From NCBI GenBank assembly GCA_027493295.1, contig JAPVWS010000463.1, positions 1-34,322 on the forward strand: DNA of 34,322 bases, in the 5' to 3' direction. Shown here one piece after another: positions 2,702-10,465 of this stretch; within the stretch, counting starts at the first letter, position 1, and the number at the start of each line of letters is the position of its first letter. The DNA comes from Candidatus Versatilivorator vitaminiformans (GTDB lineage Bacteria > Acidobacteriota > Terriglobia > Versatilivoradales > Versatilivoraceae). The notes beneath the pieces were generated by a model that was not told where the DNA came from, made no database searches, and saw nothing but the letters and a program-made list of their open reading frames with translations. Both the position numbers and the translations under genes were made by a program.

Positions 2702-2796
2702 TAAGAGGTTGGAGTAGGCTCAAGAGGGATGGGCCAAAGGTCGGCGCCTGGTGGGTGGAAACCGGCTCAACGTCAAGCATGATTTGAAAATTGATT

Positions 2797-3003
2797 AACA
2801 TGGATGGACAGGATAAACAGGATTAATAGGCGAGAGTTTCCACCGTCTTGCGCTCCACCATCGCCCATGCTTCAACTAGGATTCCAACACTCGCTCCCAA
2901 GCTCAGGGAACAACTCGAAGACTCAACCGATCATTGAGCGAGTCCGCTTCCCGTGCCGAGTCGTCTCGTCCTGATTATCCTGTTCATCCTGTGTATCCAT
3001 GTT
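2797..3003. repeat. ~207-bp element with ~40-bp inverted ends built on a GGATNNACA 9-bp period
   Basis: The left arm (2797-2836) starts AACATGGATGGACAGGAT and the right arm (2964-3003), read on the minus strand, starts AACATGGATACACAGGAT; the two agree over most of 40 positions. Within each arm the unit GGATNNACA recurs every 9 bp (three units). The ~127-bp core between the arms has no gene. Related single-arm copies occur at 31826-31846 and 34216-34246, always between genes. Similar ACAGGAT-rich repeats are common in intergenic DNA of many bacterial genomes; their origin is unsettled. It could be a non-autonomous mobile element or a recombination-amplified repeat. Confidence 0.7.
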
Positions 3004-3019
3004 CAATAAATAGATATAG

Positions 3020-3214
3020 GAGCTTTTTGCAAATTTCGCAGCGGCGCAGGTCATCTTGCCGGCAAACGTGAGGTCCTGCGTTTTTCAATATCGGGTGCGA
3101 CCTGGCGAAAAATGTTGTCTAACCACAAAAAGCACAAAAGTCACAAATTGTGATTTTGTGCCTTTTGTGGCCATTCCCAGTAATCGTCCCGCTGCCGAAT
3201 TTTGCAAAAGGCTC
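3020..3214 (-). mobile_element. MITE-like element, copy 1 (195 bp, terminal inverted repeats)
   Basis: The ends are inverted repeats of ~25 bp: GAGCTTTTTGCAAATTTCGC on the left against GAGCCTTTTGCAAAATTCGG on the right (read inward). Inside, 3123-3170 is a near-perfect palindrome of CCACAAAA/GCACAAAA blocks with ~23-bp arms. The whole element aligns end to end with 9385-9578 in the opposite orientation, at roughly 85% by eye. It encodes no protein, so transposition in trans would be needed. Flanking bases (TATAG and ATGGA) do not form a clear target duplication, so this copy may be older or its flank rearranged. It lies 16 bp from the right arm of the GGATNNACA element. Confidence 0.82.
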
Positions 3215-3361
3215 ATGGAAAACCGGACTAAGGGGGCAGGGTCCTCGTTCCTGATAGGCCCTGAAGCTACGATGTTTCACCCTCGAATGATCTGCCCGGC
3301 AGGGCGGGGCGTCACTTACTTGAAACAAACCTGTATCACTCTCGAACGATTCGTGCGGCAA

Positions 3362-3377
3362 CGCCGGTCTCCCGGCG
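3362..3377 (-). terminator. Hairpin just downstream of apgM
   Basis: Read on the minus strand this is a perfect 6-bp stem CGCCGG / CCGGCG closed by a GAGA (GNRA-type) tetraloop, starting 2 bp after the apgM stop codon. No run of T follows, so it is not a textbook intrinsic terminator; it may instead stabilise the 3' end of the transcript or act together with Rho. Confidence 0.4.
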
Positions 3378-3379
3378 GA

Positions 3380-4612
3380 TCAGGGGCCGAACTTGCCGTA
3401 GAGCCCCGCGTTGGCCATCATCAATCGAATCAAGTATTGACTCTGGAATACCCCTAGCGAGCCCCGGTTGGCGCAGGTTTCGGTGAAACGACTCAGTTTG
3501 TCGCTCCCGCAAACCGGGCTGTTCAGCAGAACCGGCTGGGGATGCCAACTGTGCGATTTCAGCGCCACCGGTGTGGAATGGTCCCCGGTGATGGCCAGCA
3601 CCAGGGGGCGTTTTTGCAAGAGAATGGGGAGAGCATGGTCCACGGCCTCGATGACGGCCACCTTCCCGTCGAAATCGCCGTCCTCCCCGGCCATGTCCGT
3701 CCCCTTGACGTGGATGAAGAAATAGTCGAAGTGTTGGAACTCGTCGAGGTACTGTTGAAACTGCTGCGGGATCTCTCTTGCTCTTTCCAGATTCCGCATC
3801 CCGATCAGTTGGGCGAGTCCCCTGTACATGGGGTAAACGGCAATGGCCGCGGCTCCCAGTTGAAACCGCTCCTCAAACCCGGGGATACGGGGAAGGCTGC
3901 CGATGCCTCGCAAGAGGAACGCGTTGGCGGGAAGGTCTTCGGAAAGCAGTGGCATGGCCCGGCGGTAGAAGCCGGCGATCACCTCGGCCGCCCTCTTGGC
4001 ACTCTCTTCCCGGCTTTCGGCTATGATCGGCCTTATGGGAAGACCTGTTCGGTGAGGATCGGAGTCGGGGAGAGGGCCGGCGATGCCGCCTCCGCGGAAA
4101 ACCACCACGAATCGATGGGATCTTCCACGCCGGACAATGATCCGGGTCTCGCCGATCCTGCCAATGGCGCCCAGTTTTTCGCAGAGGACCCGGTTCAACC
4201 GGCTGTCAATGCGGCCGGCTCTGCGGTCGGTTACGATACCTTCGGCATTGACCGTACAGAAGTTGGCACGAGCGGCCACATCGCCCAACTTCAAATCCAT
4301 TCCAAGCCCCAGTGCCTCGATCACGCCTCGATCGGCTCGGAACACGGCAGGATCGTAGCCGAAAAGACCCAAGTGGCCGGGTCCGCTTCCCGGCGTAATC
4401 CCCGGCAGGACAGGAGTCATTCGGCCCATGGCCGAGGTCTGAGCCAATTCATCCAGGTTCGGAGTGACCGCTGCCTCCAGCGGTGTGCGGTAGCCGGTCG
4501 CGGCGGTCGCGATGTCGCCGACACCGTCCAGGACCAGCAGGACGAGCTTGCCCTCGGGCCGGTGAGGCAGCCTCAGCGATCGATACAGAGTCTCTTCTTC
4601 CACCGTTTTCAC
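3380..4612 (-). CDS. apgM: 2,3-bisphosphoglycerate-independent phosphoglycerate mutase, archaeal type (ApgM)
   Basis: A 410-residue member of the alkaline phosphatase superfamily. It interconverts 3- and 2-phosphoglycerate in glycolysis and gluconeogenesis. LVLLVLDGVGD (23-33) gives the first metal-ligand Asp29; PGSGPGHLGLFGYDP (74-88) carries the presumed nucleophile Ser76. The distal metal sites are HVKGTDMAGEDGD, ITGDHSTP and HSWHPQP in the last third. The length matches archaeal-type ApgM (about 400-410) and is shorter than the ~510-residue bacterial GpmI. These motifs separate it from homoserine kinase-like and phosphopentomutase relatives. It is transcribed divergently from pyc across a 431-bp gap. 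The start is ATG at 4612; later ATGs would remove little but the N-terminal tail. Confidence 0.93.
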   Translation of the reverse strand: MKTVEEETLYRSLRLPHRPEGKLVLLVLDGVGDIATAATGYRTPLEAAVTPNLDELAQTSAMGRMTPVLPGITPGSGPGHLGLFGYDPAVFRADRGVIEALGLGMDLKLGDVAARANFCTVNAEGIVTDRRAGRIDSRLNRVLCEKLGAIGRIGETRIIVRRGRSHRFVVVFRGGGIAGPLPDSDPHRTGLPIRPIIAESREESAKRAAEVIAGFYRRAMPLLSEDLPANAFLLRGIGSLPRIPGFEERFQLGAAAIAVYPMYRGLAQLIGMRNLERAREIPQQFQQYLDEFQHFDYFFIHVKGTDMAGEDGDFDGKVAVIEAVDHALPILLQKRPLVLAITGDHSTPVALKSHSWHPQPVLLNSPVCGSDKLSRFTETCANRGSLGVFQSQYLIRLMMANAGLYGKFGP

Positions 4613-4738
4613 CGTGTTCGTTATTCGTCCGGACCGGCAAGCAGCATTCTACATTACAACGGCTTTCCGTCTCCCGGGGCTTGTGTATAGAATAGGAATC
4701 TTTTGTTGATGTCCCGGTGCGGCGCAGATGGGTTCAGC

Positions 4739-4770
4739 GGGACAGGTGGATAGCCGGTCCCCCCTGTCCC
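4739..4770. repeat. GGGACAGG/CCTGTCCC palindrome
   Basis: A perfect 8-bp stem (4739-4746 with 4763-4770) around a 16-nt loop. The right half resembles the TCCCCCTGTC half of the palindrome at 31711-31740, so both may belong to one dispersed palindromic repeat family. It lies upstream of both apgM and pyc, so termination is not its obvious role. Confidence 0.45.
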
Positions 4771-4810
4771 CGACGACGGGGCGAATCATACGGAGTGAAA
4801 CAGGAGTTCA

Positions 4811-4973
4811 GGTAAGTAGAGAGTGAAGAGCGGTGAGAGGTCAGCGCAGAATTTCGGGAACCGGCAAGCGCCTGATGACCTTAATGCACTAATTGACGGA
4901 CTGCGCCGAGGTCAACAAGAGACTTAACGCTTGATTCCAATCCCTCTCCACTCTCCACTCTTCACTCTTCACC
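4811..4973. repeat. ~163-bp segment with imperfect ~30-bp inverted ends rich in GAGTGAAGAG
   Basis: The left arm 4811-4840 contains GAGAGTGAAGAGCGGTGAGAG. The right arm 4942-4973, read on the minus strand, contains GGTGAAGAGTGAAGAGTGG. The arms match imperfectly. The right arm is itself a short array of TTCACTC / CCACTCT units. It ends 70 bp before the pyc start and could fold into a large hairpin in the pyc leader. Only one copy is in the window, so mobility is speculative. Confidence 0.5.
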
Positions 4974-5043
4974 TTGGTTGCGCCGCCGTACCATACGACG
5001 AGGCGGCTCATAAGGGGCGAAACATGGGTGTTCCAAACTAGCG

Positions 5044-8000
5044 ATGAAGAAACTCCTGGCTGCCAACCGCAGCGAGATCGCCATTCGTATCATGAGGGCG
5101 GCCACCGAATTGGGGTTGCGGACGGTGGCGATCTACTCCGAGGCGGACCGCGTCGGCCTGCACCGTTTCAAGGCCGACGAGGCCTATGCCCTTTCAAGAG
5201 ACAAGGGTCCGGTGGAGGCCTATCTGGATATCGAGGGCATTCTGGCGATTGCCCGGGACAAGAAGGTGGACGCCATCCATCCGGGCTACGGGTTCTTGGC
5301 GGAGAACCCTCAGTTCGCCCAGGCCTGCCAGCAGGAAGACATCACCTTCGTGGGGCCGACACCCCGTGTGCTGGAGTTGCTGGGAGACAAGCTGGCTGCC
5401 CGCCGCCTGGCCAAGAAGGCGGGAATCCCGGTGATTCCCGGGACCGACGAGCCCGTGGAGGAAGGGCGGGAGGCCATGCGAACGGCGGCAGAGTTGGGAT
5501 TCCCCTTGATTGCCAAGGCCGCCTTCGGCGGAGGAGGCAGGGGAATGAGGATCATCCGTTCCGCCGAAGATCTGGAAAAGCAATTGGCCGAGGCCCGAAG
5601 CGAGGCGGAGGCTGCCTTCGGCAATGGCGCCCTTTTTCTGGAACGCTTCATCGAACGTCCCAAGCATGTGGAGGTTCAGATCCTGGCCGACCGGCATGGA
5701 GATGTCGTGCATCTCTACGAGCGGGATTGTTCGGTGCAGCGAAGGCATCAGAAGGTAGTGGAGGTGGCGCCGGCTGCAGGAATACCGAACAAGTTGCGTA
5801 AGGAGTTGTGGGAAGCCGCGGTTGCCCTGGCGCGTGAAGTCGGCTACGTGAATGCCGGAACGGTCGAGTTTCTCCTGGATGTGGACAGCCGCGAATGGTT
5901 CTTCATCGAGGTCAACCCCCGAATTCAGGTCGAGCACACCGTGACCGAGAGAGTCACCGGGATCGACCTGGTGCGCTCACAGATCCTGATTGCTCAAGGC
6001 TGCCGGCTGCACGAACCTCCGATCTCCTTGCCCCCCCAAGAGGACATGCCGCTCTACGGCAGCGCCCTGCAGTGCCGCATCACGGCGGAAGACCCGGAAA
6101 ACAACTTCGCGCCGGACTTCGGAAAGGTCACGACCTACCGTTCTCCGGCCGGATTCGGCTTGCGATTGGATGGAGGTGCGGTCTCCGGGGGTGCGGTCCT
6201 GATTCCCTACTACGATTCCCTGCTGACCAAGGCCACGGCTTGGGGAAGGACGCCCAAAGAGGCCTGTCAGCGGATGGATCGAGCCCTGCGAGAGTTTCGA
6301 GTCCGTGGCGTCAAGACCAATGTGCCCTTTCTTGAAAATATCGTCAACCATCCGGTGTTTCAGGATGGCTTGGCCACCACGCGTTTCCTGGACGAGTATC
6401 CCGAGTTGTTTCACTTTGTCCAGAGACGGGATCGGGCCACTCGACTGCTGAACTACCTGGCGGGAGTCATCGTGAACGGGAATCCGGAGGTTGCCGGAAA
6501 GCCCTGGCCCGAGTCATTCGCCACTTCCAGAACCAGTCGAGACATTCAGCCGGCGCCCCTGCCCGAGATTCCCTTTCCCAAGGGAATCGCTCCGCCTCCG
6601 GGAACCCGGCAGCAGTTGCTCCGGTTGGGTCCGGAACGGTTTGCTCAGTGGATGCGGAAGCAAGAGCGCCTTCTGATCACCGACACCACCTTCCGCGACG
6701 CCCATCAGTCCTTGCTGGCCACCCGGGTGCGTTCCATCGACATTCTGAGGATTGCCGAGGCCCTGGCTCACCGGTTGCCCCACCTCTTCAGCCTGGAGAT
6801 GTGGGGCGGCGCCACCTTCGATACCGCCCTGCGCTTCCTCAACGAGGATCCCTGGCAGAGGCTGCGGCAGCTTCGAGATCTCGTCCCCAATATCTGCTTC
6901 CAGATGCTGTTTCGGGCTTCCAACGCGGTGGGATACACCAGTTACCCGGATAACGTGGTGGCCGAATTCATCAAGGAATCGGCCCGGCAGGGCATAGACA
7001 TCTTCCGTATTTTCGACTCCCTGAACTCGGTGGAAAACATGGAAGTCTCCATGGCTGCGGTTCGGGAGACCCACGCCGTTTGCGAGGCCGCCATCTGCTA
7101 CACCGGCGATATCCTCGATTCCCGGCGGCCCAAGTATTCCCTTGGCTACTACCGCAAGATGGCGCGACGGCTGGAGGAGATGGGCGCCCACGTCCTGGCC
7201 ATCAAGGACATGGCGGGTCTCTGCAAACCCTACGCCGCCGCTGAACTGGTGAAGACCTTGCGCCAGGAGGTGGAAATTCCGATTCACTTCCATACCCACG
7301 ACACCAGCGGTGTGAGCGCGGCTTCCATCCTGAAGGCTGCCGAGTCGGGAGTGGATGTGGTCGACGGCGCCGTTTCGTCCATGAGCGGTCAGACCAGCCA
7401 GCCCAATCTCAACTCCATTGTGGAAGCCTTGCGCGGCCAGCCGCGGGACACGGGGCTCGACCCCGGGGTCTTGGGAGGCTACTCGGATTACTGGGAGCTT
7501 GTCCGCGACTTCTATCGACCCTTCGACAGCGGTCCGAGGTCGGGAGACGCCAAGGTGTACCTGCATGAGATACCGGGCGGGCAATACACCAATCTGCGCC
7601 AGCAGGCGGCAGCCGTCGGTCTGGGTTACCGCTGGAGCGAGGTGGAGTCGACCTACGCCGAGGTGAATCGACTCTTTGGCGACATCGTCAAGGTCACTCC
7701 TTCCAGTAAGGTGGTGGGAGACCTTACGCTGTTCCTGTTGGCCAAGGGGATGGCTCCGGAGGATCTGCTCCATCTGGACGTCAAGCACGATCTCGCACTT
7801 CCCAATTCAGTGATCGATCTCTTTGCCGGTTCGCTGGGAACTCCCCCGGGAGGATGGCCGCCTCGCTTGCAAACCATCATCTTGCGGGGAGCTGAACCCA
7901 GCCGCACGCGTCCCGGAGCCGATCTGCCGCCCGCCGACTTCGGCAGGACTCGGAAATTCCTGAAGCGAAAGCTCGGCCGGGATGTGCGCCATGACGAGGT

Positions 8001-8517
8001 GTTGAGCTACCTGTTGTATCCGGATGTGTTTTTGAACTACGTAGCCACGCATCGGAAGTTTGGCGACGTCGGTGTCCTCCCGACTCCCCAGTTCTTCTAC
8101 GGCATGCAGTCGGGAGACGAAATCGCGGTGGACATCGAGCCCGGCAAGACCCTGGTGATCAAGTTCCTGACCATCAGCGAACCCAACCCCGACGGCCGAC
8201 GAACCGTCTTCTTCGAGCTCAACGGACAGCCTCGGGAGGCGGTGGTGCGCGATGAAAGCCTGAAAGAGGCTGCCCCGGCACATCCGAAGATCAGCCCCGG
8301 GGAGCCCGGGCAGGTGGGGCCCCCGTCGCCCGGGGTCATTACCCACGTATTCGTCCAGTTGGAGCAGAGAGTGGACAGGGGCGAAAAGCTTTTCACCCTG
8401 GAAGCCATGAAGATGCAGAGTACGATCTACGCCCCAGTGGCCGGACGTGTCAGCCGGATACTGGTGGGGGCAGGGCAGCACGTTGAGGCCAAGGCCCTGT
8501 TGTTGACCATCGAATAA
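5044..8517 (+). CDS. pyc: Pyruvate carboxylase (single-chain)
   Basis: 1157 residues, the usual length for single-chain PYC, which carboxylates pyruvate to oxaloacetate using ATP and biotin. Domain order: biotin carboxylase ~1-455, with ATP-grasp loop GGGGRGM at 162-168, DCSVQRRHQK at 228-237 and EVNPRIQVEHTVTE near 291-304; carboxyltransferase ~535-810, with TDTTFRDAHQS at 546-556 (metal-ligand Asp) and the HTHDTSG block; PYC/OADA tetramerisation region with HEIPGGQYTNLRQQ; biotin carrier domain ~1085-1157 with EAMKMQ, the biotinylated lysine being Lys1123. All catalytic motifs are present, so it should be active. The start ATG at 5044 has only a weak upstream ribosome site. It provides anaplerotic oxaloacetate and, with apgM, supports gluconeogenesis. 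The permease gene begins 33 bp downstream. Confidence 0.97.
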   Translation: MKKLLAANRSEIAIRIMRAATELGLRTVAIYSEADRVGLHRFKADEAYALSRDKGPVEAYLDIEGILAIARDKKVDAIHPGYGFLAENPQFAQACQQEDITFVGPTPRVLELLGDKLAARRLAKKAGIPVIPGTDEPVEEGREAMRTAAELGFPLIAKAAFGGGGRGMRIIRSAEDLEKQLAEARSEAEAAFGNGALFLERFIERPKHVEVQILADRHGDVVHLYERDCSVQRRHQKVVEVAPAAGIPNKLRKELWEAAVALAREVGYVNAGTVEFLLDVDSREWFFIEVNPRIQVEHTVTERVTGIDLVRSQILIAQGCRLHEPPISLPPQEDMPLYGSALQCRITAEDPENNFAPDFGKVTTYRSPAGFGLRLDGGAVSGGAVLIPYYDSLLTKATAWGRTPKEACQRMDRALREFRVRGVKTNVPFLENIVNHPVFQDGLATTRFLDEYPELFHFVQRRDRATRLLNYLAGVIVNGNPEVAGKPWPESFATSRTSRDIQPAPLPEIPFPKGIAPPPGTRQQLLRLGPERFAQWMRKQERLLITDTTFRDAHQSLLATRVRSIDILRIAEALAHRLPHLFSLEMWGGATFDTALRFLNEDPWQRLRQLRDLVPNICFQMLFRASNAVGYTSYPDNVVAEFIKESARQGIDIFRIFDSLNSVENMEVSMAAVRETHAVCEAAICYTGDILDSRRPKYSLGYYRKMARRLEEMGAHVLAIKDMAGLCKPYAAAELVKTLRQEVEIPIHFHTHDTSGVSAASILKAAESGVDVVDGAVSSMSGQTSQPNLNSIVEALRGQPRDTGLDPGVLGGYSDYWELVRDFYRPFDSGPRSGDAKVYLHEIPGGQYTNLRQQAAAVGLGYRWSEVESTYAEVNRLFGDIVKVTPSSKVVGDLTLFLLAKGMAPEDLLHLDVKHDLALPNSVIDLFAGSLGTPPGGWPPRLQTIILRGAEPSRTRPGADLPPADFGRTRKFLKRKLGRDVRHDEVLSYLLYPDVFLNYVATHRKFGDVGVLPTPQFFYGMQSGDEIAVDIEPGKTLVIKFLTISEPNPDGRRTVFFELNGQPREAVVRDESLKEAAPAHPKISPGEPGQVGPPSPGVITHVFVQLEQRVDRGEKLFTLEAMKMQSTIYAPVAGRVSRILVGAGQHVEAKALLLTIE

Positions 8518-8550
8518 TCACCGCCGCTGCCCGCCGACGGGGTTCGTCCC

Positions 8551-9378
8551 GTGACCGGTCTTATCGTCAATTTCGTCAGCAAGGTCGTTCGCCATCGGGG
8601 TCTCATCCGGTCGATGGTCCAACGCGATCTCAAGAGCCGCTACGTGGGTTCGGTCATGGGGCTCTTCTGGTCGGTGATCCATCCGCTGGCGCTGCTGGTG
8701 TGCTACACCTTCGTGTTTTCGGTGATCTGGAAATTACAAATTCAACACCCCCGGTTTCCCGAGACCGGAACGGCCAGCTTTGCCATCTACCTGTTCTGCG
8801 GCATCCTTCCCTGGATGATGTTCCAGGAAACCCTGACCCGCTCCAGCAACGTGCTGGTGGACAACGCCAATCTGATCACCAAGACCTTGTTCCCCTCGGA
8901 GATCCTGCCGGTGGCCGTACTGATCGCCAACCTGGTGAACCACCTGATCGGCTTGGCCATCTTCCTGGTGATCATCCTCTTCTACCTGCAGGACCTGAGC
9001 TTTCTTGTGCTGTTGATTCCCCTCTACCTGCTTCCCCTGATGCTGTTTGCCCTGGGGTTGAGCTGGGTGGTCTCGTGTCTTCAGGTGTTTCTGAGGGACA
9101 CCGCCCAGGTGGTCACGGTAGTCCTGACCTTCTGGTTCTTTTTTACTCCCATTTTCTATACCGAAGAACACCTGGGCAGCGTCAGCGACAAGCTGATCCT
9201 GGCAATGCGCTTCAATCCGTTGGCCGAAGTCGTGATTGCTTATCGCAAGATGTTGCTGTTTGCCGAGATGCCGTCCTGGCAGGGGATGATTCCCCTCTAC
9301 GGGATGGCTCTGGTTACTTTCGTGTGTGGGGGTCTCCTGTTCCGTTACGTCAAGCGATCCTTCGCGGATGTGCTTTAA
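8551..9378 (+). CDS. ABC-2 type polysaccharide/LPS export permease (Wzm/KpsM/TagG-like), without adjacent ATPase
   Basis: A 275-residue integral membrane protein. The N-terminal block IRSMVQRDLKSRYVGSVMG followed by GLFWSVIHPLALL is the hallmark of Wzm/RfbA/TagG permeases, which export O-antigen, capsule or teichoic acid chains. About six hydrophobic segments follow, and the late FNPLAEVVIAYRKMLLF block is also typical. These permeases need a Wzt/TagH-type ATPase, usually the next gene. Here a MITE copy begins 6 bp after the stop codon and no ATPase gene lies anywhere in the window. The GTG start at 8551 lies 33 bp after pyc, so it may be co-transcribed. Alternative: it partners with an ATPase elsewhere. 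Family assignment is secure, substrate unknown. Confidence 0.92.
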   Translation: MTGLIVNFVSKVVRHRGLIRSMVQRDLKSRYVGSVMGLFWSVIHPLALLVCYTFVFSVIWKLQIQHPRFPETGTASFAIYLFCGILPWMMFQETLTRSSNVLVDNANLITKTLFPSEILPVAVLIANLVNHLIGLAIFLVIILFYLQDLSFLVLLIPLYLLPLMLFALGLSWVVSCLQVFLRDTAQVVTVVLTFWFFFTPIFYTEEHLGSVSDKLILAMRFNPLAEVVIAYRKMLLFAEMPSWQGMIPLYGMALVTFVCGGLLFRYVKRSFADVL

Positions 9379-9384
9379 TGGGTG

Positions 9385-9578
9385 GAGCTTTTTGCAACAT
9401 TCGGCAGCGGAACGATTGCCGGGAATGGCCACAAAAGGCACAAAAACACAAATGGTGACTTTTGTGCTTTTTGTGGTTGGATAGCATTTTTCACCAGGTC
9501 GCACCCGATATTGAGAAAGGCAGAACCTCTGGTATGCTCGCCAGGTGACCTGCCCCGCTGCGAATTTGCAAAGAGCTC
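9385..9578 (+). mobile_element. MITE-like element, copy 2 (194 bp) with 5-bp target duplication
   Basis: Inverted ends GAGCTTTTTGCAACATTCGG and, read inward from the right, GAGCTCTTTGCAAATTCGCA. It is flanked by GGGTG on both sides (9380-9384 and 9579-9583; extendable to GGGTGG if the first G of the end is counted as target). The central palindrome of CCACAAAA/GCACAAAA blocks is at 9429-9476. It is the reverse-complement counterpart of 3020-3214. It encodes no protein. It sits 6 bp after the permease stop codon and ends 14 bp before the ATG of the next gene, so it forms that gene's immediate 5' region. Confidence 0.87.
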
Positions 9579-9592
9579 GGGTGGTTTTATCC

Positions 9593-10465
9593 ATGAGATC
9601 TCTGTGGTGCACTCCCGTGCTGGCCGCGGGCTTGGCCCTGCTCGGAGGATCCCCTCTCCGGGCGACCCCGGATTTTCTGCCGGAGGCCAGTGCCTATCAT
9701 GCCTACCTGGATTCCACCATTCTCTTGGCGTTTGAACTGACCCCTGGCCGGGAAGCCTTCATCGAAGTCATCAACCTGGGGGAGAATCGCCGCTGCCTCA
9801 CGGTGGAGCGGATATTCATGCGAACGGCGGAAGGGCAGCCCTTGCGGTTCGACTCCTTTCTCTACGACGGCCGCAAGTCAAAGCTGGAGGGCAATCCCCG
9901 GGCTTGCGTCCGCCAGCGTACGCGGCGCAGATTCGAGCTCGGGTACAGCTTCGACTTTCCGGAGAAAGTGCGCAAGGTCGTATTTTTGTTGGGAAGGTTG
10001 GCCTATCGGCTGCAGCCGGTCGGCGGTGAGGACTACAGGAAGTTTCTGGAGAATTTCAACAAGGTCAACATCGGGGTCAGCAGTGATCGCCTCAAGAGAT
10101 TCCAGTTGGGTGTGCTCTTCGGCAAGAGCTTTTATGGTTCCAGGGTACGTTGCCGGCGGGTGGCGGCCCCATTTGTCAGCAACGGGACGCGCGGACCCGT
10201 GACCCTGTTGAGCACCTTTCCCAGGCGTACTCAAAAGGCCAGGAAGAAAAAGAAGACCGCCAGCCTGAGCATCGCCTTGAAGCTGGATCCCAACGGCGAG
10301 GTGGTTGAAGCCATTCCAGAGTCCAACCTGGAGTTCGGGCTCACCGAACGGGCGCTCTATGAGGTGAAACACTGGTGGGACTTTGCTCCGGCCTACCAGG
10401 ACGGCAAGCCGGTGGCCAGCGATCATCGGGCCAAGGTGGTCTATCGATTGGAGCAGGATGACTGA
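9593..10465 (+). CDS. Secreted protein of unknown function with C-terminal TonB-like domain
   Basis: 290 residues. Residues 1-24 form a signal peptide (hydrophobic VLAAGLALLGG, cleavage likely after PLRA). The middle ~25-205 is unrecognised, with several Cys and many Arg. A very basic linker (RKKKKTAS) precedes a C-terminal domain of ~70 residues: LKLDPNGEVVEAIPES, then GLTERALYEVKHWWDFAPA and DGKPV. That pattern matches the TonB/TolA C-terminal family, where the W-F-PA-GKPV strand is diagnostic. Unlike TonB itself there is no N-terminal membrane anchor that would remain after cleavage, so it is probably periplasmic. I chose ATG 9593, because the upstream GTG at 9545 lies inside the MITE and would place residues before the signal peptide. 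Function unknown; a role in envelope binding is inference. Confidence 0.78.
   Translation: MRSLWCTPVLAAGLALLGGSPLRATPDFLPEASAYHAYLDSTILLAFELTPGREAFIEVINLGENRRCLTVERIFMRTAEGQPLRFDSFLYDGRKSKLEGNPRACVRQRTRRRFELGYSFDFPEKVRKVVFLLGRLAYRLQPVGGEDYRKFLENFNKVNIGVSSDRLKRFQLGVLFGKSFYGSRVRCRRVAAPFVSNGTRGPVTLLSTFPRRTQKARKKKKTASLSIALKLDPNGEVVEAIPESNLEFGLTERALYEVKHWWDFAPAYQDGKPVASDHRAKVVYRLEQDD

Follow-up and report, generated by a model that had tools for sequence, protein, structure and literature searches.

Two miniature inverted-repeat elements of Candidatus Versatilivorator vitaminiformans with insertion-sequence ends and a probable remnant of a GxxExxY gene cassette

Two short inverted elements and their insertion sites

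The stretch of DNA analyzed here (the window) comprises the 34,322 nucleotides of contig JAPVWS010000463.1 (C405) of Candidatus Versatilivorator vitaminiformans (Acidobacteriota), one of the 534 contigs of a 4.2-Mb draft genome (G000). In this window, apgM, pyc and a permease gene are bracketed by two elements of about 195 bp, copy 1 and copy 2, which are in all probability miniature inverted-repeat transposable elements (MITEs) with the ends of an insertion sequence (IS). Pairwise alignment revealed that the two copies are reverse complements over their full length (87.2% identity over 195 positions, E 7e-65), with the similarity ending at the GAGC termini, and both the GAGC-type terminal inverted repeats (TIRs; about 25 bp, 88%) and the central palindrome (48 bp in each copy) named in a preliminary description were present in the alignment. 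In each of three stretches the folding of the palindrome region was more stable than that of every one of 200 dinucleotide shuffles (z −4.3, −4.3 and −3.8), and the window had no match in Rfam when gathering thresholds were applied. At 194–195 bp the copies are too short for a transposase gene, and the list of open reading frames (ORFs) contains none inside them. The 19-bp end of the family, GAGCCTTTTGCAAAATTCG, is reproduced exactly by the high end of copy 1 and by the two ends of another MITE (L226). At the remaining three ends of copies 1 and 2, a few bases deviate from this sequence.

Further copies in the genome were to be expected if the elements were mobile, as the preliminary description had pointed out, and about 66 two-ended copies were found in G000, some of them with target duplications; the figure derives from 68 rows with both ends measured, less two overlapping artefacts (the second rows of L257 and L265). 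The end pattern gave 78 matches in this genome, compared to none for a reversed control. When copy 1 was used as the query, 40 of 147 candidates scored as copies and, copy 1 itself excepted, were 84–92% identical to it. Element length was 193–196 bp in 41 of the 68 rows, the full range being 184–293 bp. The same query matched all seven members of the genus, most weakly G005, and its best matches beyond the genus hit the palindrome part (genus g20: G028, G053 and G059).

Exact flank repeats of 4 bp were found in 18 and of 5 bp in 6 of the 68 rows, compared to averages of 0.76 and 0.24 after exchange of flanks between copies, and an exact repeat of 4–6 bp was present in 25 rows. The bases flanking the MITEs are 62% A+T, versus 37% farther away. 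When the flanks of copy 2 were joined with a single GGGTG, all 600 bases could be aligned gap-free with G003 (93%) and with G004 (89%), indicating that the GGGTG noticed at both borders of copy 2 is a true target duplication that arose upon its insertion. Copy 2 is missing from the same junction in G001, G003, G004, G005 and G006 and is present at the same place only in G002. In G003 and G004 the permease stop codon and the next start codon lie close together; the insertion of copy 2, with its duplication, added 199 bp between them. A second empty site was provided by a MITE of G003 that lies within a decayed GxxExxY cassette (see below) with TCTT on each side, the same site being devoid of the MITE in G004 and G005. 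At the site of copy 1, no copy 1 match was seen in G001, G004, G005 and G006 (the contigs of G003 break there); the left neighbor is itself a repeat, and no base-exact empty site could be read. The 3–9.6-kb block, for which inversion between the two copies had been envisaged, has the same order and orientation as the window in G001, G003, G005 and G006, so that the inversion gained no support, although all of these genomes lack the pair of copies on which it would depend.

A GxxExxY gene cassette in the longer copies

The longer MITE copies carry additional DNA between the palindrome halves. A PF13366 search of G001 returned an open gene at 1918151–1918489 beside a MITE half. This gene is contained in L315, an element of 582 bp that has both ends, CACAAAA arms and a 125-codon frame at positions 83–460, with no transposase. 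This ORF was assigned to TIGR04256 (GxxExxY protein; 111 bits versus a cutoff of 35), and the G-x-x-E-x-x-Y motif is present in its translation. Thirteen partial, C-terminal PF13366 matches of G001 were also fetched, ten of which lay in two-ended elements of 336–338 bp and two in one-ended elements, the last one lacking a matching pair. Alignment of 14 elements revealed a deletion series with differing breakpoints within the GxxExxY gene: the 336–337-bp forms retain the end of the gene, the 250–286-bp forms its first codons and last few, and the 224- and 202-bp forms almost none of it, while the 194–195-bp forms of the window have kept the arms only. Because these graded copies lose the gene between the arms, we read the central palindrome as the two cassette arms brought together after gene loss.

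The gene-bearing element occupies the matching place in G001 (L315) and G003 (L331), where the gene of G003 is also open, and the surrounding ORFs presumably belong to type IV pilus assembly (pilN/pilO), which their translations resemble. The same cassette is found in G006 within different flanks (88% identical over positions 40–461), and it is thus a module distinct from the IS ends. Comparison of the three open genes placed 14 of 30, 26 of 46 and 26 of 47 differences at third codon positions, which is a mild sign of selection on the GxxExxY protein. In a locus of G006 (L316, contig C74, at about 500–930), the stop codon of an open GxxExxY gene is adjoined by a TIR-like sequence, and immediately after the latter come two tandem units that are almost identical, have CACAAAA arms and differ in their short center from the other cassettes. 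In G005, a pair of TIR-like sequences separated by 758 bp (L075) was rejected as a further gene-bearing element, there being no GxxExxY gene among its ORFs and no PF13366 match at that place.

Insertion sequences with the same ends and the probable origin of the elements

We found the end sequence of the MITEs in inward-facing pairs 1,463 bp apart in G001, a genus-mate assembled as a single contig, so that the full-length IS sought in the preliminary description does exist and shares the 19-bp end. G001 has ten such ISs of 1,487 bp and one 1,477-bp relative, with GAGCCTTTTGCAAAATTC at start and end and GAGCCTTTTGCAAAATTCG at both ends, and the 4-bp flanks are identical in 10 of the 11. The ISs code for a transposase of 391 aa, in which DUF772 and DDE_Tnp_1 domains were recognized. 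Its best NCBIfam model was IS1182 (117.3 bits versus a cutoff of 270), followed by IS5_4 (70.9 bits versus 140), and as neither score passes, the family of the IS is not assignable by curated thresholds. Relatives of the transposase are found in many phyla, with at least 80 loci kept among 100 confirmed. An element of 188 bp in G001 (L078, C1:310371–310558; element at 372–559) has the same IS-type ends, but its interior is unrelated and contains a separate inverted repeat (GGGGACGTTGTTGAATTACTGG...), and hence these ends have carried other DNA too.

Considering these results together, it is very probable that both window elements are MITEs with the ends of this DUF772–DDE_Tnp_1 IS, that the transposase of the IS or of a close relative moved them in trans with a 4–5-bp duplication, and that they descend from an IS-ended element with a GxxExxY cassette that has since been hollowed out. 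The ancestor would not have been merely a shrunken IS: it would have carried, as a passenger between its IS ends, a GxxExxY gene flanked by inverted CACAAAA arms with a period of about 9 bp. Internal deletions would then have removed the gene and left the arms face to face as the central palindrome, and the transposase of the IS, or of a relative since lost, would cut and join the ends in trans. The gene would have been lost after capture, with decay running from gene-bearing to gene-less forms. A role of the GxxExxY protein or of the arms in mobility is speculative. The movement by an outside transposase that the preliminary description proposed is well matched by the shared IS ends, the duplications, the empty sites and the high copy number, from which we infer that the elements were mobilized in trans.

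Several observations weigh against this explanation. No exact duplication of 3–9 bp flanks 42 of the 68 MITE rows, and copy 1 itself has no target duplication (..atag|atgg..). No clean duplication borders L315 (tgtt|tttt), the single gene-bearing copy with two ends, and the right end is missing from the corresponding element of G003. G001 was the only genome in which the transposase gene was found intact (ten genes), with fragments in G000, G002, G003, G004 and G005 and neither gene nor fragment in G006; multicopy ISs can, however, be missing from a draft in 534 contigs such as G000. Finally, comparison of the MITEs with the tested IS ends revealed no convincing similarity past 19 bp (20 comparisons, the best equalled by 4 of 200 shuffles and the next by 16 of 200). 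A subterminal MITE/IS likeness that was apparent by eye was accordingly dropped, and the exact parent IS was not found.

This last result, with GCAGCGGGGCAGGTCATTTTGCCGGCAAAC as the subterminal sequence of the MITEs, is what would be expected if the likeness to the IS were confined to the ends and a different, unseen transposase moved the MITEs. Such an alternative is also favored by divergence, since the MITEs are 84–92% identical to copy 1 while L060 and three other G001 ISs that share its orientation are 7–11 bases apart, so that the MITE and IS expansions differ in age. By contrast, all 19 of the 19 end bases are identical, the 4-bp duplication size is common to the IS and the MITEs, and of 38 relatives of the transposase that were inspected, representing several phyla, at least 19 have the gene flanked on either side by GAGCC..TTGCAA ends (at most two mismatches). 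We therefore regard a different transposase as improbable, though it deserves some weight.

A second alternative concerns the interior: the MITE could be an ordinary deletion derivative of the IS into which either a gene-less repeat, giving the palindrome, or the GxxExxY gene was later inserted. Comparable palindromes do occur outside the genus, in 5 of the 54 genomes that were searched there, and none of the four sequences read had these ends; within the genus, arm pairs of another type that lack the gene are scattered independently. Elements of 224–337 bp in two genomes, however, contain different pieces of the gene on one or both sides, flush with the arms, which fits deletion, and no pieces of coding sequence would be expected if a gene-less palindrome had been inserted; this alternative is therefore unlikely. 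That the repeats are regulatory hairpins or terminators maintained by selection rather than mobile DNA is scarcely credible, for although the hairpin is strong (z about −4) and copy 2 is situated after the stop codon of one gene and before the likely start of the next, empty sites and duplications are precise and copy 2 is confined, among the genomes compared at its junction, to G000 and G002, when selection would predict that its position is conserved throughout the genus.

GxxExxY cassettes beyond the window and known mobile elements

To describe the cassette with the IS ends set aside, we used 30 GxxExxY loci of the class returned by the PF13366 search (not all of its matches) and scored inverted repeats directly around the gene, with a threshold of at least 21. 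Inverted arms were present at 20 of the 30 loci, compared to 1 of 90 swapped partners and 0 of 90 shuffles. When L298, which lies at a contig end, was omitted, 20 of 29 genes lay between inverted arms, whereas among 171 equally long control stretches from elsewhere in these loci there was 1 such case; the other nine loci scored below 21, with L300 passing only when wider flanks were used. The arm sequences vary from locus to locus (CACAAAG, CACAGAGG, CGCCGAG, ACACGAAT, ACAGGAT and others). In 16 trimmed arms (15 trimmed by hand and that of L315; 6 of the 21 loci scoring at least 21 were dropped, as their alignments overran the arms), self-match reached 0.40 and 0.43 at lags 9 and 10, compared to 0.30, and was equalled by 0 of 500 shuffles at each lag. 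The values for all 42 untrimmed arms were 0.33 and 0.36, compared to 0.28 when shuffled. Among six plasmid GxxExxY loci only one reached the threshold (Bacteroides, 24; Gemmatirosa scored 20 and the other four at most 13), and inverted arms are thus not universal.

The cassette with ACACGAAT arms was found, arms and gene together, within differing flanks, at one place common to G005 and G001 and at one more place each in G001 and G004, which makes it likely that the cassette moves by itself. Gene-less matches to its arms are scattered through all seven genomes of the genus, and an alignment was made of 12 arm pairs that lack the gene, taken from G001, G002, G004, G005 and G006. At the site of the G004 cassette, G005 retains the arms but has lost most of the gene, showing that cassettes decay in place. 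A clean insertion of the cassette at position 1820041 of G001 (L350; compared with contig C202 of G000) was considered and rejected: the missing piece, of about 697 bp, holds more than the cassette. This segment is absent from G000, G002 and G003 and has a GC-rich direct repeat of about 15 bp at its ends. In G009, G010 and G011, which belong to the same family and to other genera, 13–20 PF13366 matches were found per genome, many of them fragments, suggesting that cassettes decay there as well.

The PD-(D/E)XK label of the GxxExxY protein comes from the Pfam name PDDEXK_3 (PF13366); PADLOC gave no match for the protein, and no relative with a solved structure was found by sequence. We propose, tentatively and with more doubt than confidence, that GxxExxY genes with inverted arms of about 9–10-bp periodicity may form a widespread class of mobile cassette, in which a putative PD-(D/E)XK-like protein acts on arms that are lineage-specific in sequence and alike in geometry. 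Bare palindromes elsewhere would then be its decayed or non-autonomous form, and the present MITEs would be chimeras that arose when IS ends captured such a cassette, which was subsequently hollowed out.

A second, different element, probably also a cassette remnant, adjoins copy 1 in the window (Table 1). The region aligns with the arms and with gene-internal stretches of cassettes from G002, G003 and G006 (L294, L297 and L300; partly 71% and E 0.009 for L294) and is repeated elsewhere in the genus. From these alignments we read it as a hollowed GxxExxY cassette of another arm type.

Table 1. Coordinates of the two MITEs and of the adjoining cassette remnant in the window
Feature	Position	Strand	Remarks
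MITE copy 1	3020..3214	− (orientation of the presumably lost GxxExxY gene)	195 bp
Copy 1 TIR, low end	3020..3044		GAGCTTTTTGCAAATTTCG...; two differences from the IS end
Copy 1 TIR, high end	3189..3214		Read inward, exactly GAGCCTTTTGCAAAATTCG, the IS end
Copy 1 central palindrome	3123..3170		Probably two cassette arms face to face after gene loss
MITE copy 2	9385..9578	+	194 bp; orientation opposite to copy 1
Copy 2 central palindrome (probable cassette arms)	9429..9476		
Target-site duplication GGGTG, left	9380..9384		Begins two bases past the stop codon of the permease ORF 8551–9378
Target-site duplication GGGTG, right	9579..9583		Next likely gene start is the ATG at 9593
Second, different GxxExxY cassette, probably decayed	2744..3014	−	No IS ends; abuts copy 1
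Second cassette, left arm	2790..2835		ACAGGAT type
Second cassette, right (inverted) arm	2964..3011		ATCCTGT type

Bacterial MITEs derived from DDE insertion sequences include the Correia elements and RUP. The present elements resemble these in being short and devoid of a transposase, in having inverted ends that match an IS, and in their target duplications and tens of dispersed copies. They differ in the interior, which here appears to be left over from a GxxExxY cassette that had separate inverted arms, and for which an IS origin is unsupported. Palindromes are also known from repetitive extragenic palindromic (REP) sequences (REP/BIME), which carry tetranucleotide tags and adjoin a RAYT transposase gene. 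In mobile insertion cassettes (MICs), IS ends surround a passenger gene and there is no transposase. One MIC example is that of Aeromonas qnrS2 (PMC5444012). L315, which represents the proposed ancestral form, is like a MIC in that IS-type ends surround one passenger gene without a transposase, but its GxxExxY passenger is enclosed in a further unit, bounded by inverted arms, which is also found where IS ends are absent. With respect to the GxxExxY family (TIGR04256; PF13366), the ORF of L315 is a member, whereas the window elements keep no gene. With respect to the IS1182 and IS5 families, the DUF772 and DDE_Tnp_1 domains are alike and IS1182 is the closer model, but the scores fall below both cutoffs.

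GxxExxY is mentioned in a passage of PMC8934634 on genes beside reverse transcriptases. No published function for the family was found in the open-access literature. Nor did that literature yield a description of inverted periodic arms or of mobility for the family, or a published account of these MITEs, of the IS or of the arms, both absences carrying little weight.

Our results tie GxxExxY, an orphan family, to a concrete setting, that of mobile and decaying cassettes, through the probable lost passenger of the MITEs and the arms at 20 of the 29 loci of the class. They also offer a possible origin for palindromic repeats like those that several of the searched genomes contain, and they suggest that the interior of a MITE can derive from a captured gene cassette.

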